From positions 186,001-250,000 of the forward strand of contig JAIVFJ010000064.1 in the NCBI GenBank assembly GCA_025765615.1: a stretch of DNA of 64,000 bases. Reading direction: 5' to 3'. Origin of the DNA: Zopfochytrium polystomum (taxonomy: Eukaryota > Chytridiomycota > Chytridiomycetes > Chytridiales > Chytridiaceae). Both the position numbers and the translations under genes were made by a program. The notes beneath the pieces were generated by a model. The model was given only the letters and a program-made list of their open reading frames with translations. It made no database searches and was not told where the DNA came from. This document shows, one piece after another, positions 10,750 to 50,565 of this stretch (its first letter is position 1; every line of letters begins with the position of its first letter).

Positions 10750-13745
10750 TCACTTCTTCCGGCCTTTCGGAGCGGCCGGCTTCCGTGCGGGTGCCGCCGC
10801 CTTGCGGGGTGCGGCCTTGCGCGGTGCTGCCTTGCGGGGTGCTGCCTTGCGGGGCGCTGCCTTGCGCGGCGCTGCCTTTCGTGGAGCAGCCGCCTTCTTG
10901 GAAGCCGCCTTGCGGGGCGCGGCTTTCGCTCCCTTCCGAGGCGCCGCCGTTTTTGGCCGACCAGGCGCTCCCTTCTTCCCGCCAGCTACTGCGCGTCCCT
11001 TGCCGCCCTTGCCTCCACCAATCTTTGCGCCCCGCACCGCCTTGGGAGCCTTCGTTAAGCCCTTCGGTTTCACGCCCCTCGCCCCCGTGGTCGTCCGTCC
11101 AGTCCCCTTGGCTCCCTTGGTCCCCTTCGCTCCCTTCGCTCCCTTTGCGCCTTTTGGCGCGCCCTTGCCCCCCCGTCCGATCGCGCCTTTTGTGCCTTTC
11201 ATCGCCCTCACCCCCTTTGCGCCCTTTCCACGAAGCTGCACTCCGTTCCTCCCGCCCTTCACCGCCTTGGCCCCGCGCGACAAGCCCGTCTTGGTGCCCT
11301 TGGGGTCGCCGGCCTTGAATCCGCCCCTGCTTCGCGCAGGTCCCACGGCCTTCGCCCCTTTCGCCCCTTTTTCACCCTTCATCTCCTTCGCCCCCGCAGC
11401 GGACCCCAGCCCGCGATCCTTCGCCCCCGCCGCGCTCCGCGTCGGCAACTTGCACGCAATAGGACCGCGCCGCACCAGCACCACCCCGCCGCTCGGCAGC
11501 GACCGCCGCACCACGCAGCCCGCGCCGGCGCCTCCCGACGCCGCCGACGACGACGAGGCTGCCGAAGCCGACGGCGAGGACGGCGCGGACGGAGCTGAAG
11601 GCGCTGAAGGCGCTGAAGGCGCGTGGGCGGCCGGCTCCGGCGGGTCGTGCTTCTTCTCCATGTCCTTGACCTTGATCTTTGCCGCGTCGCCCACCACGCT
11701 CGTCCCGATCGACATGCCGGCCGACAGCGCGGCTCCTGCGACCGGGTTCCACGCTGAGACGCCGTGCTTGACGGCTTCGCCGACGCCTTGATTTGTATGT
11801 CGGGTTTTGTGCGTGAGTGGGAAGTGTGTGACGAGAACTGGGAGGCGAAGAGGAGTGTACGATAGTGCAAGGAGTGGGGCACTGACCTCCCATGACTGCT
11901 TGGACTCCAGCCTTAGCGTTGTTGCCTTTACAGAAAACGAGAGATTAGTAACTTTAGAGGTGATTGTGAAAGGCAAGTCTATGCGTACCGGACTCGTCGC
12001 TTTGTTTTTGCTTTTCACCGCCAAACCGCTTCTTCACGTACGATTGCGTTGCACTGCCCAGTGCGCTGACGGCACCGCCTACGGTAGGCGAAAACAAGAT
12101 TTGATTGAACAAGGAAAGAATCGGGCCATCAGATGAGTAAAAGATGGGCCGAAAGGGGAAGAGGAAATGCGCGTTTTATGAGTGGGACATTACTTGCAAT
12201 GGGACCGCCGTACATTCCAGCAACACCCGAAGCCGCGCCGAACGCTGCACCGTGTGCGACCCGCGCCACCGCTTTGGATGGGAACAAAAAGAAAAGGTTC
12301 AGCTTTCCGATGGAAGAGGTGGGTGGTCGCAAAGCTGCTACTCAACTGGCTCGCTTGTCGACTCCGTCGATTTTAGCGTTACGATACTCCTTGAGGCCGC
12401 CCACCGTACCGCCGATGACAGCCGCAACGGGAACAGCGACGGCCGGTAATGTCGCACCGATGGTGGCCTTCACGGCGCTGGTCGCGATGCTGGTCACTCC
12501 GCTGGCCACTGCGTTTGTGATCTTTTACGTTCGTTAGGAAAAAATTAACTCCTCGTTGAGAGCTGCATTAGCAGGGATACGTACCATTTTTTGGCCCTGG
12601 GGTAGGTGGGGAGAATGATGAATCGAAAGTTTAAGACGTTGAGCCAAGGCCCGCCAACAAGAGCGAAACGTGAAGAGCATGAAGCAGTAGAGCCTTTGGC
12701 GATTCCCTGATCTAAGGGTTTAAGCAGGTTTACTTACGTCTTTCGTCTTGGCGAATCTGAAAAAAGGTGAATGTTTCGCATACGGAGTGGTCGAGGTTAC
12801 GGGGGGAAAGAGGATGAAGTGCGAGATTGGGAGTTGATTCGGTCAGACAAAAACAAAGGGAGAAGAATGCGGGCTCACTCACTCGTATCCTGCAACGGCT
12901 TTATCCTTGACGTACTTGCCCCCAGCCACAGCCTTGTCCTTGACGTAGGTCCCTCCGGCGACGGCCTTATCCTTTACGTAACTTCCACCCGAAACCGCCT
13001 TGTCTTTGACGTACGTCCCACCGGCGACCGCTTTGTCCTTGACGTATGTCCCGCCGGCGACCGCCTTGTCCTTTACGTAACTTCCACCAGCGACCGCCTT
13101 GTCTTTGATGTACGTCCCGCCCGCAACTGCTTTATCCTTGACGTACGTGCCACCGGCGACCGCCTTGTCCTTGATATATCTTCCGCCGGCAAGAGTCTTA
13201 TCCTTTGCATTGCTGCGGTGAGAGAGGAGGAGGATTCAGGTTTAGTGGGTCTCTTAATTTTGGAGGAGAGCTGGGCAGGCAAGACACGCAAAATCGAAGA
13301 CTCTCAAGACATCACCTGGAGCTCACCTGAAAAACCGAGAAGCGCGAGACGGTGCAGCAGCACCGTTGGCTGCAGGGGCGGGGCCAGCCGAGCCAGCAGC
13401 CGAGCCCGCCCCCGATGAGGAGCCGAGAGGCGTCATGGGAATGTACACGGCCCCGGGGGACCCAGGCGAACCGGGGTCGGCTGCCGCCGAGCCGGAGGCA
13501 GCGTCGTCGCCTTCGCCGTCCCTCCGCAACAGGGAACCGGCGTCGTCTGGCTGCTGCTGCTGAGCGACAAAGGGTCCGATGCGCATGGGGCGCATGGCGC
13601 GGCGGCGCAGGTGGGAGACGAGATCGGTCGCGGCACGGCGCTGGTTCGGCTGGCGACGGAAGCGGCGGGCGAGGGCGGCCAAGTGGGCGGCGTAGGCGTC
13701 GCCGCTTGCAGCAACCGAGGCGTCGAAGCTGAAGAAGCTGTCCAA

Positions 13746-13776
<31 letters not shown>

Positions 13777-13991
13777 AACGAGGGCGGCTCCGACGGCGGG
13801 AGGGACGCTGCGGATGCGGCTGCACTGGCGTGGGCCGAGGGAGCGGAGATGGCCAGGAAGGCAAAGACGGCGACGGCGACGGTCAGGAGAAGGGATGATG
13901 CTGCAGTGGCGGTGAGGGTGCGAAGGAAGGACGAGGAGGAGGAGGAGGACGCTGCGACGGGTGCGGCCGATCTAGAAGATGGCTCTGGCAT
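10750..13991 (-). CDS. Unknown 814-aa protein with 11-mer KDKAVAGG repeats and basic tail (paralogue 1)
   Basis: Nine exons fit in phase: 13991-13327, 13212-12883, 12756-12738, 12596-12585, 12521-12347, 12271-12194, 12078-11989, 11925-11887 and 11786-10750. Exon 1 encodes a hydrophobic leader (LLLTVAVAVFAFLAISA) followed by an Ala/Ser-rich and Arg-rich region. Exon 2 is nine-plus 11-residue repeats. Exons 5-8 encode Gly/Ala-rich, glycine-zipper-like helices (VAHGAAFGAASGVAGMYGG; VAVPVAAVIGG) that could be membrane-embedded. Exon 9 starts with SAGMSIGTSVVGDAAK, contains a VLVRRGPIACK motif shared with the paralogue, and ends in Lys/Ala/Pro/Gly repeats (KAAPRKAAPRK), histone-H1-like in composition. 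The family is not recognised. The paralogue at 17316-19941 supports every small exon. Secretory or organelle-membrane targeting is inferred from the leader only. Confidence 0.8.
12883..13212 (-). repeat. 33-bp tandem repeat exon encoding KDKAVAGGTYV units
   Basis: Nine full units and one partial unit of 33 bp on the minus strand encode KDKTLAGGRYI, KDKAVAGGTYV, KDKAVAGGSYV, KDKAVSGGSYV, KDKAVAGGKYV and variants. Synonymous codons differ between units (aag/aaa, gat/gac, four kinds of Gly-Gly) while the residues stay fixed. There is no in-frame ATG, so this exon is easily missed. Acceptor: ccgcag before 13212. Donor: gtgagt after 12883. Confidence 0.9.
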
Positions 13992-15083: not shown

Positions 15084-15293
15084 AAATCCATCAATTCCAT
15101 CCATCCATCCATCCATCCAAAAAACGTGTTCCAGCTACATCCTTAGAATGAGCGCCTTCGAAGGGACGCACGCACGCACGCACGCGGGCCGGGCGCCAAC
15201 AAATAAAACGCAGGAACAGCCAATCAGAAGAATCTTTTTTTTTTATGAAGGCTGGCGGACAGGGCAGACAGGCAGACAAAAATCACAAACAGC
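13992..15293. repeat. Intergenic microsatellite cluster
   Basis: Divergent gap between the minus-strand paralogue 1 and the plus-strand propeller gene. It holds (TG)n at 14116-14158, (CT)n at about 14207-14224, (CA)n at about 14268-14309, CT-rich at 14310-14356, GA-rich at about 14535-14615, (AATC)n at 15017-15079, (CCAT)n at about 15096-15118, and (ACGC)n near 15168-15186. No gene was found. Confidence 0.85.
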
Positions 15294-16820
15294 ATGATGA
15301 ACAGCGCCGCACGAGTGGGAAGACAGCCTGCCGTCGACGCCGCCGGCGCCGCGACTCCCTTTGACGACCACCTCTTTGTCACGGGCGTCGAGAGCGACCA
15401 CGTCGTCGCCGTCCAAAAGGCCTCGGGCGCCGTCGCATGGCGCAACGCCGTCCCCACAAACCCCGGATACCACCACTCCAACTCGCTGTTGCCGCACCCG
15501 CCCACAAACTCGGTCATCGCCGTCGTCGGCAACATCCCCGTCGCCTTCGACGCCCGCTCCGGCGCCGTCGTCTGGCGCGCCAAGGAGCTCAAGCACGGCG
15601 GCGCCCGCCCCACTTCCACAATGGACGTCGGCGTCCTCGCCGACCAGGCCGACGAGGACGCCTGGTTCGCCGCCACCTCCTCGGATCGTGGCTCGGGCGA
15701 CAACACGAAGGAGGCGCGCGCCGACGACGACGCCTTTCTCCGCAATTTGATTGTCTTTGCCGTCAACTACCAGGTCAACGCCATCCGCCTCTCCGACGGC
15801 CTCGAGCAGTGGACCTTTACGAACCGCGAGCTGGGAAGCAGTCCCACTGTTCTGATCGAGGACGGCGTCGTATTTGTCGGCGGCGAAGGCGTGCTCTATG
15901 CCCTCAACGCCCGCACCGGGTCGCAAATTTGGGGCTACCGCATCGACGAAATCAAGGTGCAGCTGCACATCGCCACGATGCGGTCGTCCACGCTCTACCG
16001 GCCGCGAAACTACGACCCGTCCTCCCCGCGCCGCGCCTCCCCGCCGCCTCCGGCGGAAAAGAAGTCTGCCGCACCCGCGGCCCCGCCCCTGTACGTCGCC
16101 ACCTTGAAAGAAATCCTCCAGCTCGACCCGGCCTCGGGCGAGTTCGTCCCGGGCGCCCCCGCCATCCGCCACGGCTTCTCCGACTCTACCAACTCGACCG
16201 GCATCATCCCGCTCCCCGCCACCCACCGCGCGCTCGTCTGGTGCGGCGACGCCATGCTCGTCTGCGACACGCACTCGGGTGCCGCCGTGTGGCAGAAAAA
16301 AATCCCCACCTCCAGAGACGGCGACTCGCCCAACGTCGTCTGCGGCCCGGGCGCGCCGCCCATCCGCCCCGCCGCCGCCGCTAAGGCCGCTGCTCCCGCG
16401 GACCCCGCCGCCCCTCCCGCGTACTCTGCCTCCGCGTCCTCATCTTTACCGCTCTCGTCCCCGGACCGCGGCAACCGCCTCTACATCTGCATCGGCGACG
16501 CGCTCGTCTGCCTGGACCCTGCGACCGGCGCGCTCCTTTGGAAAAAGACCTTTGGCGGCCTCTTCACCGCTTCTCCCGGCGCCGCCACCCTCGTCGCGGA
16601 CCCCACCCCGTCTTCCTCGCTGCCCCCGCTGCTCTTTGCCGGCGGTTCCGGCTCCGCCTTCGCATTTGACGCCCGCACGGGCGAGCAGGTCTGGCGCAAG
16701 AAGCTGCGCGACGGCGCGCACCACGTCAGCGTCGCCACCGACGGCGCGGGCAACGGCGAGGTCAACCGCGGCCCTGAAATTGGGCCGGCGCTCGCCGCGA
16801 CGCTGCTGATCAACTTGTGA
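15294..16820 (+). CDS. PQQ-type beta-propeller protein, 508 aa
   Basis: Single exon. It shows repeated propeller blades of the PQQ/BamB kind, each with an AFDARTGxxVW-like turn: VVAVQKASGAVAWRN, VAFDARSGAVVWRAKE, LYALNARTGSQIWGYR, LVCDTHSGAAVWQKK, LVCLDPATGALLWKK and AFAFDARTGEQVWRKK. Intact spacing suggests a complete propeller of about 7-8 blades with an Ala/Pro linker near residues 360-385. No clear signal peptide is present, so it is probably cytosolic. Fungal relatives are mostly uncharacterised; binding of a PQQ cofactor is not implied, since many PQQ_2 proteins are scaffolds. It stands between the two paralogues on the opposite strand. A second ATG immediately follows the first. Confidence 0.85.
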   Translation: MMNSAARVGRQPAVDAAGAATPFDDHLFVTGVESDHVVAVQKASGAVAWRNAVPTNPGYHHSNSLLPHPPTNSVIAVVGNIPVAFDARSGAVVWRAKELKHGGARPTSTMDVGVLADQADEDAWFAATSSDRGSGDNTKEARADDDAFLRNLIVFAVNYQVNAIRLSDGLEQWTFTNRELGSSPTVLIEDGVVFVGGEGVLYALNARTGSQIWGYRIDEIKVQLHIATMRSSTLYRPRNYDPSSPRRASPPPPAEKKSAAPAAPPLYVATLKEILQLDPASGEFVPGAPAIRHGFSDSTNSTGIIPLPATHRALVWCGDAMLVCDTHSGAAVWQKKIPTSRDGDSPNVVCGPGAPPIRPAAAAKAAAPADPAAPPAYSASASSSLPLSSPDRGNRLYICIGDALVCLDPATGALLWKKTFGGLFTASPGAATLVADPTPSSSLPPLLFAGGSGSAFAFDARTGEQVWRKKLRDGAHHVSVATDGAGNGEVNRGPEIGPALAATLLINL

Positions 16821-17315: not shown

Positions 17316-19941
17316 TCACTTCTTCTTCCCCTTTGCCGCGCCCGCTGCTGGCTTCCCCGCCACCGCCGCCGTCGCCACTGCCTTTGGCGCAGCTGCTTTC
17401 GCTTTCGTCTCGGCCTTTGGCACCGCCGCCGCGGCAACCTTGCAACCCGCGCCCCCGCCGGGCCCGCGCCGCACGAGCCCCAACCACCCCGGCCCCGCTG
17501 CGCCAAACCGCCCGCCGCCGGATGCACACACCACCACCCCCACCGCTGCCACCGCCCACGCCGCCCGCAGCAGCAGCAGCAGCCGGAGTACCAACAGAAA
17601 CAGCAGAAGCAGCAGCGGCAGCGGGCGCCGACCCGTGCGACGCGAGCTGACGTGGTGGTGAGCCGCCGACTGCGGCGCGAGCTGCCGCGCTGAGCCCCCG
17701 GTCCCAGCCAAAGACGCGGCGCGTGACCCGCCCGGTGCGACAACCGCGCCTCCGCCGCCGCCGCCGCTCCCGCCTGCCGACGGCACCGACGGCGGCTGCG
17801 GCTGCGGCGCTGGTAGCGGTACTACCCCGCCCCCGCCGCCGCCTGCTGCCGGCACCGACTGCTGCGGCTGCGGCGCCGGTAGCGGTACCACCCCGCCGCC
17901 GCCGCCGCCGCCGCCTGCTGCCGGTACCGACTGAACGACCGGAGGATGCCCCTGCGCCTGCACCGGCTGCAGCTGCGGCTGCTGCTTCGGCGCCGGTGGC
18001 GGAACCCCGCCGCCGGCGCCGCCGGCCGCCACCGCGTTGCCCAGCTTCGTCCCCACCCGCTTGACCATGTCCCCTGCCGCGCTCGTCCCGCCGACAACCC
18101 CGCGGAGGCCGCGGCGCCAAGGACTGGTGACACCGACGAGAGTGCGGCTTTCGCGGCTTCGGCGCCGTCTGTTGTGGGTTTAGTACATACGAGAATCCCG
18201 TTCAAGAGGGGAGAAGCAAGGGAGCGTCCGCGCGGGAATATGCTTGGGGACTATGAGACGAAAGAAAAAAAAAATAACTTACAGCCCATTGCGAGTTGGA
18301 AGGCGGCCTTGCTGGCTCCGCCTGCGCGGGAATGGGGGAGGTCGGAGGGATAAAATGTGTTTTTTACCATCAGCGAAATGTAATAACAAAAAAAAGCAAA
18401 AAAAGCCAATCCCGGTGAAAAAGTTCGAAACGGGGGGAGAGGGAAGGGGGGTGTTCTTCGTCCTCACCCGACACGTCGCCAAGCTTTTGAGTTTCCCCGC
18501 CAATGTACTTTTTCACCGCCGGCTGCAGCGCGCTCCCAGCTGCGCTCACCGCCGCGCCTTTTTTTTGCGTGTGGTGCTGTCAGTAAAAGGGAAGAGGATG
18601 ACCCGAAAAAAAGCAAAGCGGTTCCCTTACTCGCAACCGGGCCTCCGTAGAGTCCTGCCACGCCCGAGGCCGCGCCAAACACGGCGCCGTGCGCCACTCG
18701 AGCCGCAACTGGAAAGAGGGTGGGGTTGGGTCAAAATAAAACTGCGAACCATCTTCCAACCGGGGCAGGTAAAACTCAACTGGCGCGCTTGCTGCTGACG
18801 CCATCGATCTGCGCATTCTTGTACTCCTTGTAGGCGCCCGTGCCCGCGCCGACGGCTGCCGCGACCGGAACGGCAACCATCGGCATCGCCGTGCCGATGC
18901 TCGCTTTGATTACGCTGCTCGCGATGCTGGTTACTGCGCTTGTGCCCGCGCCGACGAGCTGTGAGGGGGGGTTTTTTTTTGGGGTCAATGGTGGGTGGTG
19001 CGTGAAAGATGTACGTACGTGTAAATTAGAAGGCGGGTGGGGGGTTACGGTTAAATGCGGAGGCAAACCATTTTCTTCCCCTGCAGGTGGTAGCGTGCAA
19101 GTTTTGTTGGCATACAAAAAAAAGAAGTTGTTGCGCGGAGGGGTTCTTTTCGTTAGCTATTTCAAAAGCAGACCGGACGCCATCGAGAGACAAGGAAAAA
19201 AGGAAAAAAAATCCGGAACTCACGTCCTTCGTCCTAAACGCAACAGGGCAAGGCAGCGGAGAGAAAAGATAGTCCGAGGGGGGATTACGGCGGAGACGCA
19301 CGTTCACGGTGGCGACGTTGCCCAAAGCGTGGGGAAAATGGTGCGTCAGATCAAGACCTGTTCACTATACTGTACGCCCCCACGGACCCCGCCCCCGCCA
19401 GTGCAGAAAAAAAAAAAAAAAAAAACAAAAAAACTCACTGCAAAAAAGCCTTCGCCTTATCCACAAAGCCCGGCGCCGCAGCCGGCGCGCCGGCGCCAAC
19501 TCCAACGGGCGGCGCTGGCGCTGGCTGCGCGACGACCGGCGCCGGCGGTGCGGCGTTGGGGTCCGGAACGGCGGCGGCGGCGCCGCTGGGTGCGCCGCCG
19601 CCGGCACTGCCGTTCCGCCGGCCAAGACGCTGCGGCCGCGACCGCGGCCCGACCATGGCCGCGGCAAGCCGCCGCCGAAGCCGCTGCCGGGCCGCGCGGC
19701 GGCGCAGGGTCGGCTGAACCGTGAGCCCGCTGCGGTGCAGCGCGAGCTCGAGGGCCGGCGCTGCCGGCGCCGTGGGTTGGGCGGCGGCGACGGCGGCGGG
19801 CGTGGAGGTGGCGTCAATGAGTAGCAGCAGCGTAAGGAGAAGTAGGTGGAAGACGATCAGGAGGCGGCCAGCGGCTGCGCCGCGGCGGCGGCGGCGGTCG
19901 ACTCGTGGCGTCCCGGTAGCAGGCTTTGGCGTCGTTGACAT
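17316..19941 (-). CDS. Unknown protein, paralogue 2 of the 10750-13991 gene, with a 1-nt frameshift
   Basis: Eight exons fit in phase: 19941-19439, 19233-19224 (10 nt), 19080-19069 (12 nt), 18958-18781, 18708-18631, 18557-18468, 18321-18283 and 18168-17316. Exons of 12, 78, 90 and 39 nt match paralogue 1 exactly in size and phase. Exon 1 has a hydrophobic leader (LLIVFHLLLLTLLLLIDA) and ends KAKAFLQ. Glycine-zipper segments recur (VAHGAVFGAASGVAGLYGG; VAVPVAAAVGAGTG). The last exon is one base short: homology to the TSVVGDAAK region of paralogue 1 continues in another frame (GTSAAGDMVKRVGTK) after about 18100, in a run of four C on the plus strand. The tail has a GLVRRGPGGGAGCKV motif and ends KGKKK. 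There is no 11-mer repeat exon. It may be a sequencing error or a recent pseudogene. Confidence 0.72.
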
Positions 19942-40251: not shown

Positions 40252-42535
40252 TTAGCGGCGCGGCGTAACACGGAGGTGCACCAACGGCTTCATGGTCGCC
40301 AGCAATTCGTGGGAAGGTGGGATGCCCGGGACGGTTGCAAATGAAAACTGGTGGATCAGGACCGTCAGCAAGATTTTCAGCTCGGTTGTGGCGAAACGGG
40401 CGCCGATGCAGTTTCTGGTGGAGGAGTGGAAGGTGGTGGTAGGGGAGGAGGCGTACTGTTAGTTTGCCATGTTGCGGATGGGTGAGGGGGTGGTTTTTGT
40501 GCTATTGCTCCCAAACAGCAGGCTGGTGCGGTCGGAGGGGAGTGGTATTCTTGTTCTTTGCACGTGCCAAACACGCACCTGGGTCCAAGGCTGAAGGGCA
40601 TAAACGCGCCAAAGGCCCTCGCTTCCGATTTTGCGGGCTTGTCGCTATCGACAGCGCCAGTTTCGGCAGCGTTGGCTACCGGGCAAACCTTCTCCGGGCT
40701 TCCGGCCGCCGCGTCCGCGGTGAGCCACCTGTCCGGGTTGAAACAGTCCGCGTCCTCGCCCCACAGCGACTTCAACCTGTGCATCACGATTGGCGGAGTG
40801 ATGATGGTCGTGCCCTTCGGCACTTTGAACCCCAGCAGCTCGTCGTCCGCCATGTTGGACCTGTAGAGGAACGGAACCGTCGGGATGAACCGCAGAGTTT
40901 CCTTCACGACCGCGTCCGTGTACTGGAGGGAGTTTGCGAGGTCATACGAGAGGAGGAGCGGGTCCAGCTTGGGCAGCGCGGCGGTGATCTCGGCGTGGAG
41001 GCGAGCCTGCACGTCTGGGTGCTCGGCGAGGTGGAGAAGCGCCCAGGTCAAAGTGGTGCTGGTGGTTTCGTGGCCGGCGAGTACAAATGTGAGGATCTAC
41101 GGGGAAACGAAACGGTGAGGGTTCTCTTCTTACACAATGAGGGTTGGGAAAAGAAAACTTGCTTCCCAGACAGCTCGACTCCCTCGCTACCCCGCCCCAT
41201 ACCTGATCCCTCAGCTCGTTTCTTGACATTTTCTCCGTGGCGTCCTGGTTTGCGCGGATCAGCGTACTCAGCAGATCCTTGCAGCCCCCTTTCTGAGAGC
41301 TCTTGACCCTGGCCTCGTAAATCTCATCGCACTTTTCCGCGAGGACCTTCCTGGCAGTCAGGTAGCGGCGGCGAGCGGCGGTCGGCAGGAGCTTCAAGAT
41401 GGGAAACAGTGAACGGAGCGCGCTGAAGCCGACGAATGCGTTGAACGACATGATTTCCTGGAACGCGAGGTGCAGCTCGGACTTGTGGTCTTGGACCGCA
41501 CGGAACTCGTAGCCGAAGGCTTTTTTTTTTTTGGGAGGGGGTTTGGAGGTTGGCAGGGAAGTGTAAGACACAGAGAACGTGAGTGCTCATTTAAACCCTG
41601 CAAACGCCCCTCTCATCATCTCACCAGCGCGTCCGATAATGTCCAACGTGCACTTTGACACCTCTTCAAAAATGTTCAGCACAACGCCGTTCTCCTTCTT
41701 GGAGGCCTCAGCGACTTCGACCTTGCTTCGCCACGACGTGGCGAGCTCAAGACCGGTGAGTGCAAAGGTCGGCGTCATTTCGGCGAGCTCCTTGACCCGG
41801 AAGGAAGGGTTCAGCATGGCGCGCTGCCGCTTGTGGACGGCGCCGACCGAGCTGATGAGGCTTTCGCCGACCAGCCTATGTGGAGTAAGAGTGTAAGAAA
41901 GGGTTGAAAAATAGGCACCTTCGGTTGGAGATGGTGATGGGCGGGGTGTGCACCGAGAAAGAAAAAGGCCAAGATTTTGAAGATTTTGCGGGAGGGCTGG
42001 ATCCAGTGAGTGGAGGAGGAATGGGAGGGGGGGAGGGGGGATAATTTCGACGGGTGACTCACTCCTTGACGAGGTTCTGCGAAAACTTCGACCTCCTGTA
42101 GAGGTCCTGAGAGCCGTAGATCCTCCTCAGTGCAGCCGGGTCGGTGACGAGGAGGACGGGTGTATTGAACAAGGCGCGGAAGAGGACGATTCCGCCGTGG
42201 CGGTTGGCCCAGCGGAGGAAAGGCGCGCCGGCCTCCTCCCTCGCGAGCTCGGGGATGTTGCCCAGAAGCGTCAGGGGGTTGCTGGGGGGGCCGGGGATCT
42301 TGCGAAGCGGGGACAGCAGGAAGGGCTGGACGAAAACCTTGTAGATGATCCAGGTGGGCACGCCAAGAGCGAGCAGCGCGCGAGCGCCGGCTGCGACCGC
42401 CCTCCCTTGGTTCGGGGAGGCGCTGCCCTTGCCGAAAAGAGAGATCAGCCAGGACTGGAAGGCCTCCACAACGGCCGCGCCGAGACGAGAAATGACCAGG
42501 GAGGGAGCTATGTTGCTGCTGCTGACCGTCGACAT
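40252..42535 (-). CDS. Cytochrome P450 B, 573 aa
   Basis: Five exons in phase: 42535-42063, 41875-41625, 41519-41203, 41096-40579 and 40414-40252. The N-terminus has a membrane anchor (ALLALGVPTWIIYKVFV) and the proline hinge KIPGPPSNP. Exon 4 starts with the I-helix AGHETTSTTLTW (about residues 354-365), then the K-helix KETLRF (Glu413, Arg416) and FNPDRW. An intron splits the heme loop, so FSLGPR joins NCIGARFA (axial Cys about 522). All P450 landmarks are intact, indicating an ER-anchored monooxygenase of fungal microsomal type; the substrate is unknown. It is a near-identical duplicate of 48101-50378 and head-to-head with the P450 at 43772. A long T-run (minus A-run) abuts the exon 3 acceptor. 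Confidence 0.93.
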
Positions 42536-43771
42536 TTTGAATGATTCGATTAATTTGGTTTGCGGCCGTTGTTTTTTTTCTTTCCAAGGATTGAAAGCTG
42601 GCAGAGTGGGGAGAGTTGTTTGGGTGGTGGTGTTTTGGGATGTGTCGGTGGCTGCCTCTCAATTTAAAGTTTTCTCAACGCGAAAAGCCAGTCAACGGAG
42701 GAGGCGTATAGAAGCTTTTGATTTTTCACAACGTCTTCGCGGCGGTTCACGGAACAAGTTGTTCCGTGGACTGGTCCGTCCGTTTTGATTGAACGGAGGT
42801 GTCAAATGTCGAACCATGAACCCAGCTAGACACAGGCAAACAACGGTGAGGATTTGTGGAACGAGACAATTATGAAGGTGCTTTTTTCGGTTGATGCTGG
42901 GACTGAGTTGATGTCCAGATAGAGTGACTCCGATTGCACGTGAAGGTGATCTTCTGCTTTCACAATCGTCGCCGACTTCGGTTACAATGGAGTTTATTGA
43001 ACATTCAATAATTTACTTTGTTTTGTGGTTTGCCTCATCGGAGACTTATTTATCAGGACGTCGCTCGGCCAATCTGCCAATAACAAGCAAGGCCTGAATA
43101 AATCAAGGGCTTTTGTCGTCTAGCAACACTAATTTCCGGGGCTTCACGCGCAACTCTACCTCCCATCAATAACTAACTCCCCTTCCACCCCCCATCCCCC
43201 AAAAGCGCACTTCATTGGCCAGCACTCTGTGCTGGACACTGTCCTTTGTGGCCAGTGTCGTTGGGCTCACTGCGTTGAGGCGCTTCATTCTGTGCCTCCT
43301 GGTTGGAGTAAGAAGAATTGTACCAAGGAGAAAGCGGAAGTGAGGTTCCTCGCTTTGGGTGCCTGTCCCACCCACCCACCCATCAGCACTGCGCTCGAAC
43401 CGAATGTCTTCACCGCTCACCTACCTAATCGCTTGTCAGCTTGTCAGAACAGCGGCGGCACACTGTTTCCTTTCGGGTGAGAAAGGGCGACGAAACTGAG
43501 TAACGACCAGATGACGTCAGCAAAACTAGGGAGGAAGCGGAAACCGAGGCGGTGGCACCCCACAAGACAATCCAATTCTTTTTGACAGGAGAGCCAGCAG
43601 CTGTCTTTGTCTTCCTTAATTGCTTTTCCCCTGACAAGTCACGCGATTGCAGTCTGTTTGTGGCAACACATTCGAAACTTTGCTCATTGTCACCGGTGCT
43701 GGGAAAACAACAAAGCGGGGGTTGGAAGGGCACCTCCACCTACCCCACCCTAACCCCTGCAAGCCTTCAAA
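42536..43771. promoter_or_regulatory. Divergent region between two P450 genes
   Basis: About 1.2 kb between start codons. A conserved block at 42661-42703 (AATTTAAAG ... AACGCGAAAAGCCAGTCAACGGAGG) lies 126 bp from the minus-strand ATG and reads CTTTAAATT on that strand. No gene is supported in between; the plus-strand P450 side lacks a TATA-like element. Confidence 0.5.
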
Positions 43772-48100: not shown

Positions 48101-50378
48101 TTAGCGGCGGCGCGGCGTAACACGGAGGTGCACCAACGGCTTCATGGTCGCCAGCAATTCGTGGGAAGGTGGGATGCCAGGGACGGTTGCAAATGAAAAC
48201 TGGTGGATCAGGACCGCCAGCAAGATTTTCAACTCGATTGTGGCGAAACGGGCGCCGATGCAGTTTCTGGTGGAGGAGTGGAAGGTGGTGGTGGGGGAGG
48301 AGGCGTGCTGTTAATTTTGCCCTGTTGCGGACGAGTGAGGGGGTGGTTTTTGTGCTGTTGCTTCCAAACAGCAGGCTGGTGCGGTCGGAGGGGAGTATTC
48401 TTGTTCTTTGCACGTGCCAAACACGCACCTGGGTCCAAGGCTGAAAGGCATAAACGCTCCAAAGGCCCTCGCTTCCGATTTTGCGGGCTTGTCGCTATCG
48501 ACAGCGCCAGTTTCGGCAGCGTTGGCTACCGGGCAAACCTTCTCCGGGCTTCCGGCCGCCGCGTCCGCGGTGAGCCACCTGTCCGGGTTGAAACAGTCCG
48601 CGTCCTCGCCCCACAGCGACTTCAACCTGTGCATCACGATTGGCGGAGTGATGATGGTCGTGCCCTTCGGCACTTTGAACCCCAGCAGCTCGTCGTCCGC
48701 CATGTTGGACCTGTAGAGGAACGGAACCGTCGGGATGAACCGCAGAGTTTCCTTCACGACCGCGTCCGTGTACTGGAGGGAGTTTGCGAGGTCATACGAG
48801 AGGAGGAGCGGGTCCAGCTTGGGCAGCGCGGCGGTGATCTCGGCGTGGAGGCGAGCCTGCACGTCTGGGTGCTCGGCGAGGTGGAGAAGCGCCCAGGTCA
48901 AAGTGGTGCTGGTGGTTTCGTGGCCGGCGAGTACAAATGTGAGGATCTACGGGGAAACGAAACGGTGAGGGTTCTCTTCTTACACAATGAGGGTTGGGAA
49001 AAGAAAACTTGCTTCCAGGCAGCTCGACTCCCTCGCTACCCCGCCCCATACCTGATCCCTCAGCTCGTTTCTTGACATCTTCTCCGTGGCGTCCTGGTTT
49101 GCGCGGATCAGCGTACTCAGCAGATCCTTGCAGCCCCCTTTCTCAGAGCTCTTGACCCTGGCCTCGTAAATCTCATCGCACTTTTCCGCGAGGACCTTCC
49201 TGGCAGTCAGGTAGCGGCGGCGAGCGGCGGTCGGCAGGAGCTTCAAGATGGGAAACAGTGAACGGAGCGCGCTGAAGCCGACGAATGCATTGAACGTTAT
49301 GATTTCCTGAAACGCGAGGTGCAGCTCGGACTTGTGGTCTTGAACCGCACGGAACTCGTAGCCGAAGCCTTGTTTTTTTGGGAGGGAGTTTGGAGGTTGG
49401 CAGGGAAGTGTAAGACACAGAGAACGTGAGTGCTCATTTAAACCCTGCAAACGCCGCTCTCATCTCACCAGCGCGTCCGATAATGTCCAACGTGCACTTT
49501 GACACCTCTTCAAAAATGTTCAGCACAACGCCGTTCTCCTTCTTGGAGGCCTCGGCGGCTTCGACTTTGCTTCGCCACGACGTGGCGAGCTCAAGACCGG
49601 TGAGTGCAAAGGTCGGCGTCATTTCGGCGAGCTCCTTGACCCGGAAGGAGGGGTTCAGCATGGCGCGCTGCCGCTTGTGGACGGCGCCGACCGAGCTGAG
49701 GAGGCTTTCGCCGACCAGTCTATGTGGAGTAAGAGTGTAAGAAAAGGTTGAAAAATAGGCACCTCCGGTTGGAGATGGTGATGGGCGGGGTGTGCACCGA
49801 GAAAGAAAAGGCCAAGATTTTGAAGATTTTGCGGGAGGGCTGGATCCAGTGAGTGGAGGAGGAATGGGAGGGGGGGAGGGGGGATAATTTCGACGGGTGA
49901 CTCACTCCTTGACGAGGTTCTGCGAAAACTTCGACCTCCTGTAGAGGTCCTGAGAGCCGTAGATCCTCCTCAGTGCAGCCGGGTCGGTGACGAGGAGGAC
50001 GGGTGTATTGAACAAGGCGCGGAAGAGGACGATTCCGCCGTGGCGGTTGGCCCAGCGGAGGAAAGGCGCGCCGGCCTCCTCCCTCGCGAGCTCGGGGATG
50101 TTGCCCAGAAGCGTCAGGGGGTTGCTGGGGGGGCCGGGGATCTTGCGAAGCGGGGACAGCAGGAAGGGCTGGACGAAAACCTTGTAGATGATCCAGGTGG
50201 GCACGCCAAGAGCGAGCAGCGCGCGAGCGCCGGCTGCGACCGCCCTCCCTTGGTTCGGGGAGGCGCTGCCCTTGCCGAAAAGAGAGATCAGCCAGGACTG
50301 GAAGGCCTCCACAACGGCCGCGCCGATACGAGAAATGAACAAGGAGGGAGCTATGTTGCTGCTGCTGACCGTCGACAT
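48101..50378 (-). CDS. Cytochrome P450 D, 574 aa, near-copy of P450 B
   Basis: Five exons: 50378-49906, 49719-49469, 49368-49052, 48946-48429 and 48266-48101. Exon lengths equal P450 B except the last, which has one extra codon (Arg repeat before the stop). Exon 4 looks identical at the residue level: AGHETTSTTLTW, KETLRF, FNPDRW. The heme loop is again split by intron 4 before NCIGARFA. N-terminal differences include SLFISRIGAAV for SLVISRLGAAV. The duplication extends through the introns and about 200 bp of upstream DNA, so it is recent. All catalytic landmarks are kept. It lies head-to-head with pseudogene E. Confidence 0.92.
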
Positions 50379-50523
50379 TTTGAATGATTCGATTAATTTG
50401 GTTTGCGGGTGGAAGTGGTTGGCCACCGCCGTTGTTTTTTTTCTTTCGAAGAATTGAAAGCTGGCAGAGCGGGGAGAGTTGTTTGGGTGGTGGTGTTTTG
50501 AGATGTGTCGGTGGCTGCCTCTC

Positions 50524-50565
50524 AATTTAAAGTTTTCTCAACGCGAAAAGCCAGTCAACGGAGGA
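50524..50565 (-). promoter_or_regulatory. P450 upstream block (P450 D)
   Basis: Same AATTTAAAG ... AACGCGAAAAGCCAGTCAACGG block as P450 B, 146 bp from the ATG; TATA-like CTTTAAATT on the minus strand. Confidence 0.5.

Follow-up and report, generated by a model that had tools for sequence, protein, structure and literature searches.

A minus-strand segment of Zopfochytrium polystomum DNA (13212-12883) that encodes a tandem array of 11-residue units is, on our splice model, a genuine internal coding exon of a predicted gene with nine exons, here called gene A. The repeat is conserved as protein, with the units changing mostly at synonymous sites. All positions refer to the window, the 64,000-nucleotide stretch of DNA that was analysed, unless another contig is named.

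Gene A, on the minus strand, starts with an ATG at 13991 and ends with a stop codon at 10750, and its nine exons join into one frame of 814 residues (Table 1). All eight introns have GT-AG borders and are 63-141 nt long. The repeat segment forms exon 2 (330 nt, or 10 x 33, phase 2-2), and the borders proposed for it in a first-pass annotation of this DNA proved exact: the AG acceptor CTCTCACCGCAG precedes 13212 and the GT donor GTGAGTGA follows 12883, and the exon fits in frame into the gene model. The description of the segment as an exon lacking its own Met also stands, this being an internal coding exon, and for the same reason the accompanying word 'cryptic' was too strong. Nine full units lie in exon 2, the first reading KDKTLAGGRYI and the others KDKAVAGGTYV with small changes. 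A tenth unit, KDKAVAGYEFA, starts in exon 2 and is finished by the first seven bases of exon 3, so that the 11-residue period continues across the splice junction and the annotated count of nine or more 33-bp units holds.

Two neighbouring glycines are present in nine of the ten units, and Val and Tyr (or Leu, Ile, Phe) are found in all of them. Lys and Arg outnumber Asp and Glu both in exon 2 (22 versus 11, a charge of +11) and in the strongly basic gene A protein (137 versus 41). Tandem Repeats Finder reports a 33-nt period in the array together with a higher-scoring 99-nt period. Units 2-4 and 5-7 constitute a 99-nt super-repeat with 3, 6 and 3 differences per 33 nt, so part of the array stems from duplication of a three-unit block. 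Because exon 2 is a multiple of three in length and has equal phases at both ends, its gain, loss or skipping preserves the reading frame.

Table 1. Coordinates of predicted features of genes A and B and of other features discussed in the text.
Feature	Position	Strand	Basis or remark
Gene A exon 1: Met start, hydrophobic segment (residues 30-48), low-complexity linker, phase 2 end	13327-13991	-	Splice model; hydropathy peak 2.44
Gene A exon 2: ten-unit array bar its last residues, 330 nt, phase 2-2	12883-13212	-	Splice model; repeat analysis
Nine full 33-nt / 11-residue units, consensus KDKAVAGGTYV	12909-13205	-	Sequence inspection
First 26 nt of tenth unit (remainder 12756-12750 in exon 3)	12883-12908	-	Splice model
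Gene A exon 3: 19 nt, encoding FAKTKD after the split E	12738-12756	-	Splice model
Gene A exon 4: 12-nt micro-exon GQKM, equal length in four family members	12585-12596	-	Splice models
Gene A exon 5: first half of the glycine-rich hydrophobic domain	12347-12521	-	Splice model; AF2; hydropathy
Gene A exon 6: 78 nt, encoding the second hydrophobic stretch, equal length in four members	12194-12271	-	Splice models; core alignment
Gene A exon 7: 90 nt, equal length in four members	11989-12078	-	Splice models
Gene A exon 8: 39 nt, as in B and C; 51 nt in D	11887-11925	-	Splice models
Gene A exon 9: Ser/Pro linker, Arg-rich motif holding two cysteines, Lys-rich tail, stop codon	10750-11786	-	Splice model; motif by eye
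Open frame antisense to exon 2, with ATG, judged a by-product	12771-13418	+	Residues vary between units
Gene B, without repeat exon: exons 19941-19439, 19233-19224, 19080-19069, 18958-18781, 18708-18631, 18557-18468, 18321-18283, 18168-17316	17316-19941	-	Splice model
12-nt micro-exons in the window	12596-12585 (gene A); 19080-19069 (gene B)	-	Splice models
12-nt micro-exons outside the window	L032 2252-2263; L033 1778-1789		Splice models
Cysteine/RR motif regions in the window	11786-10750; 18168-17316	-	By eye
Cysteine/RR motif region outside the window	L032 3159-3666		By eye
Duplicated open frames, first pair	40443-41306; 48197-49075	+	Shared identical stretches
Duplicated open frames, second pair	41811-42674; 49720-50526	-	Shared identical stretches

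The first-pass annotation held that the protein repeat rather than the DNA is kept, and comparison of the units bears this out. When a synonymous excess between units was looked for, 4, 1 and 11 variable columns were counted at codon positions 1, 2 and 3, respectively. The nine in-exon units form 36 pairs, over which pN was 0.078 and pS was 0.736, and the resulting pN/pS of 0.106 was matched by none of 635 usable null sets (median 1.0, minimum 0.25; 2000 sets were tried and those containing stops were dropped), although these figures are descriptive because the 99-nt super-repeat makes the units non-independent. The sense frame keeps 84% of residues between units and has no stop. One antisense frame keeps 82% but contains three stops, whereas the antisense frame that is open keeps only 43% and was therefore rejected as the coding frame.

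Codons for identical residues differ in 0.529 of pairs, compared with 0.501 (sd 0.043) for random draws with gene A codon usage. This agreement suggests that synonymous sites are near equilibrium. Draws as codon-diverse as the array numbered 290 of 1000 with gene A usage and 28 of 1000 with the usage of the window genes; codon scrambling beyond equilibrium was considered and set aside, being absent by the first measure and mild by the second. The GC3 of exon 2 is 0.66 versus 0.85-0.86 in three window genes, with gene A exons 1 and 9 nearer at 0.77, and its synonymous score is -0.18 versus 0.44-0.64 for the same three genes. Codon scores place the sense strand only slightly above the antisense strand (log-odds -0.001 versus -0.19; synonymous score -0.18 versus -0.204).

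Relatives of gene A were located in the same genome. Gene B (19941-17316, minus strand), about 3 kb further up, is 60% identical to gene A over 154 residues (E 2e-22). A protein search of the 80-Mb genome followed by modelling added gene C on contig C9 and gene D on contig C139, the latter with a 98.9% identical copy on contig C36. Genes A-D share a glycine-rich, hydrophobic core that aligns across all four, exon lengths of 12, 78 and 90 nt, and equal phases, those of the later gene C exons assuming a start. The micro-exon of 12 nt is present in four of four modelled members (GQKM, GKKM, NKKA or NEKM) and is followed by an exon that measures 175 nt in A, 178 nt in B, about 184 nt in C and 181 nt in D, and then by the exons of 78 and 90 nt. 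In gene C, the acceptor before the ~184-nt fourth exon is ambiguous and the 3' end lies beyond the contig. This work brings to light a predicted gene family with a conserved 12-nt micro-exon whose core appears to be without relatives in the searches made. Neither a 294-aa piece nor the core alignment, each used as a query in a protein search, found any among proteins shorter than that of gene A.

Each family member has an N-terminal hydrophobic segment, with 19-residue hydropathy peaks of 2.44, 2.51, 3.19 and 2.53 in A, B, C and D, respectively, and this segment is preceded by an Arg-rich start in B, C and D, but not in A. In gene A it is a predicted signal peptide or anchor, as judged from hydropathy, and Arg-Arg sites are visible by eye in exon 1. 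An AF2 model of exon 5 together with a paralogue is a single long helix (residues 2-51, mean pLDDT 66.6). The repeat exon is absent from the three modelled loci of B, C and D, and no remnant of the repeat was found in gene B intron 1. In these paralogues, the core is preceded by one short basic stretch with a net charge of +3, +4 and +5 (segments picked by eye). When the genome was searched with the repeat, the window was the sole match below E 0.05 among nine listed at E <= 10. Weak genome matches on contigs C4 (530355) and C43 (300910) were seen by protein search. We also noted that the last exon of gene B is interrupted by a stop codon in its entry frame and that a gene A-like tail sits in another frame, an arrangement that may reflect an intron, an assembly error or decay. 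Furthermore, two cysteines surround RR-containing motifs near the C-terminus in A, C and, in the tail frame, B (by eye).

The interpretation that we favour, and hold tentatively, is that the array is an expanded basic spacer next to a membrane-type domain, in a nine-exon gene for a secretory-pathway protein. The 814-residue product would follow the plan of family A-D, in which an N-terminal hydrophobic segment and Arg-Arg processing-like sites are combined with a glycine-rich hydrophobic domain that is probably seated in the membrane as helices. The ten-unit array would replace the short basic segment that precedes this domain in the paralogues, and would serve as a spacer, positively charged (+11) and either flexible or loosely helical, that keeps the N-terminal region apart from the membrane-embedded domain. 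Its lysines might bind anionic lipid head groups or wall polymers. The signal peptides and membrane helices of A-D are predictions from hydropathy, and the secretion, topology, spacer role and binding proposed here are likewise putative. Two observations count against a spacer: the conservation of Gly, Tyr and Val exceeds the needs of a plain one, and exon 2 departs in its codon usage from the three window genes.

Alternatively, the array might be a beta-structured or elastomeric segment of a wall or matrix protein, with AVA and TYV as strands, GG and KDK as turns, and cross-linking through Tyr and Lys. Its strongest periodicity on the Fauchere-Pliska scale is 5.5 residues (0.454), equivalent to two apolar patches per unit, and on the Eisenberg scale this period ties with that of 11 residues (0.380 and 0.382, respectively). 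The Lys-rich tail and the N-terminal hydrophobic segment would also suit a secreted structural protein. However, the two-residue beta alternation of the array is weak (0.113 at 163.6 degrees), and a homologue of this kind was not found in the searches made. Furthermore, the AF2 model of the array alone has no strand, although this single-sequence model (mean pLDDT 36.2) is itself uninformative. We consider this explanation unlikely.

The first-pass annotation likened the array to the amphipathic 11-mers of LEA, perilipin and synuclein proteins, a comparison that was not borne out by the properties calculated here. We consider it improbable that the array is an 11/3 amphipathic helix of the kind seen in synucleins, perilipins or apolipoproteins, which would fold on meeting a membrane. 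The likeness lies in the 11-residue period, the Lys content (K-x-K in every unit) and the long tandem arrangement, and a report on perilipin 4 (PMC5889406) describes an additional 33-residue (3 x 11) order that the array partly has at the DNA level. On the Fauchere-Pliska scale the array has an 11/3 hydrophobic moment of 0.085 and the unit one of 0.052, the latter value being reached by 96% of unit permutations; on the Eisenberg scale the unit moment is 0.156 and is reached by 77% of random orders. By comparison, the perilipin 4 repeat has a moment of 0.257 (Heliquest), called the smallest among known lipid-surface helices in PMC5889406. The array does not show the 11/3 amphipathicity by which the synuclein/perilipin lipid-surface class is recognized, and it contains a different unit, which follows a signal-peptide-like segment and in nine of ten cases includes the adjacent glycine pair.

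Profile searches gave similar results. The Pfam Synuclein model (PF01387) scores the array at 21.8 bits, below its cut-off of 23.3, and three of nine permuted arrays outscore this value on unrelated Pfam families. The match was dropped as evidence after these permutation controls, although none of the nine permuted arrays matches Synuclein itself at E <= 0.1. The genome holds other 11-mer proteins, a point in favour of a lipid-surface helix, and one of these, encoded on contig C163, lies above the Synuclein cut-off (25.5 versus 23.3), although the permuted arrays indicate that such scores can be spurious. This protein was the only one listed in a genome-wide Synuclein search, which did not list the array. 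Perilipin membership was judged by a Pfam match (PAT domain and four-helix bundle), and exons 1, 5 and 9, the array and cores A-D gave no match to the Pfam perilipin models at E <= 1.

The LEA_4 unit comprises 11-mers with an acidic-Lys-Ala element and Tyr, at a spacing similar to that of the array. A LEA-like or other disordered protective repeat, which would shield membranes or proteins in drying or cold, agrees with the Lys/Asp/Ala/Gly-rich composition of the 11-mer, with the very low AF2 confidence, which fits disorder without showing it, and with the weak LEA_4 score of a related 11-mer protein, P0002 (23.8 bits, cut-off 51.1). This explanation is nonetheless doubtful. LEA_4 (PF02987) does not match the array at E <= 1 (a genome-wide LEA_4 search, which gave zero matches even for its controls, is uninformative). 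In contrast to LEA group 3, the array is Gly-Gly- and Val-rich, with Val and Tyr (or Leu, Ile, Phe) in each unit, and is connected to a hydrophobic domain, with a signal-peptide-like segment ahead of it. The array resembles lipid-binding and LEA repeats by period, not by physical pattern.

According to the first-pass annotation, no described family has this exact unit. This is correct for the libraries and literature that were searched, where the exact strings KDKAVAGG, VKDKAVAG, YVKDKAVA and AVAGGTYV were not found in 5.39 million papers, but near-identical units do occur in undescribed proteins. A protein search with the full-length query, scored over residues 222-520, returned seven of 7995 scored proteins at E <= 0.01 (P0001-P0007), all holding short arrays of 11-mers with the same spacing. 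Alignments were made of the exon-2 peptide with P0001, P0002 and P0006, and of part of gene A with P0007. Exact residues in common with the gene A protein number 13 for P0005, 10 for P0007, 8 for P0002 and P0006, and 7 for P0001, P0003 and P0004, compared with at most 5 for nine permuted arrays, a comparison that is biased because the matches were chosen by words of the true query. P0005, which carries a DUF883 C-terminal glycine zipper (PF19029), holds YVKDKAVAGGKYV exactly, and the class 3 lipase P0007 (PF01764) has KDKAVAGYEF, ten residues of the tenth unit, which spans an exon junction in gene A. The unit is therefore not unique.

P0006 is from Paracidovorax anthurii. The other matches appear from their domains to be bacterial or phage proteins, P0005 on account of seven viral-contig relatives, and in our judgement P0001 is tape-measure-like. 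The strict motif is found in none of these seven relatives, and thus the array looks optional in this group also; a looser four-residue pattern occurs once in four of them. P0005 resembles gene A in having related 11-mers adjoining a glycine zipper, but is phage-looking, has about four units in its main run, and no further likeness was seen; the PF19029 profile has no match in cores A-D at E <= 1. P0002 (PF01764; RDKAVQGYDYA) and P0003 (eCIS core domain, PF13699; KDKAVAAGGWI) have the same Asp/Glu-Lys-Ala-aromatic spacing. The 11-mers of the lipases P0002 and P0007 and of P0003 are N-terminal or internal, and these proteins differ from gene A in being bacterial-looking, with shorter arrays and unrelated partner domains. 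The 11/3 moments are 0.526, 0.163, 0.088, 0.261, 0.162 and 0.082 for P0001-P0005 and P0007, respectively, and hence low amphipathicity is common to some of these proteins, but not to all.

A degenerate YxKDKAVA[GA]G scan, for which we estimate less than one chance match at even base composition, found three stretches in the genome_contigs collection, one in Paracidovorax and two representing one Caulobacter protein that has a single copy of the pattern and no repeats, and none in viral_contigs. Matches to three designed repeat proteins in the PDB (best E 7.7e-4) were discounted as low-complexity likeness, and the best PHROGs match (phrog_9838, E 2e-7, over 15 residues) as short-word likeness. 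The likeness of the bacterial and phage 11-mers to the array may be convergence. A broader proposal, which we regard as a long shot, is that x-[DE]-K-A-V-x-[GA]-x-x-[YWF]-[VIAT] constitutes a separate 11-residue module, for the most part non-amphipathic, that has repeatedly been acquired as a tandem insert, optional in nature and placed next to membrane or delivery domains (in a eukaryotic secretory protein, in bacterial eCIS-type and lipase proteins, and in phage proteins), and that would act unlike the LEA/synuclein class. If this likeness goes beyond chance, the role of a non-amphipathic 11-residue period becomes testable. Finally, a neutral amplified low-complexity insertion of little function would fit the presence of the array in one of four modelled family members and the tandem duplication seen in its 99-nt super-repeat, but is very unlikely given that residues barely change while synonymous sites are near equilibrium.

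Several other 11-mer proteins were observed in the genome. The C163 protein (64297-64617, minus strand) is a 201-aa open frame that starts like a signal peptide and contains an LARR site and eight 11-mers of the NTVKDGAVNAA type; its 11/3 moment is 0.287, and its units are unexceptional versus permutations (28-31%; 13-23% on the second scale). An open frame at C4:455788-456306 (plus strand) likewise starts like a signal peptide, contains a VARR site as well as long 11-mer-like repeats, and scores 32.6 bits on Pfam Apolipoprotein, below the cut-off of 90. A LEA-like Lys/Asp 11-mer array at C5:70380-70691 (minus strand) scores 28.4 bits on the same model, also below cut-off, and has no LEA_4 match at E <= 0.1. 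Ala/Gly-rich 11-mer proteins of the AGSAVKSGAEA type, in several copies, occur on C265, C51, C519 and C41, and an open frame at C82:222178-222366 (minus strand) has a few tandem 11-mers read as IKDRIMDGAEG. Between genes A and B, the window holds an open frame for a PQQ-type beta-propeller (PF13360, E 7.1e-24) at 15249-16820 (plus strand). It also contains a segment duplicated about 7.8 kb apart, recognized from two pairs of open frames with long stretches of identity.
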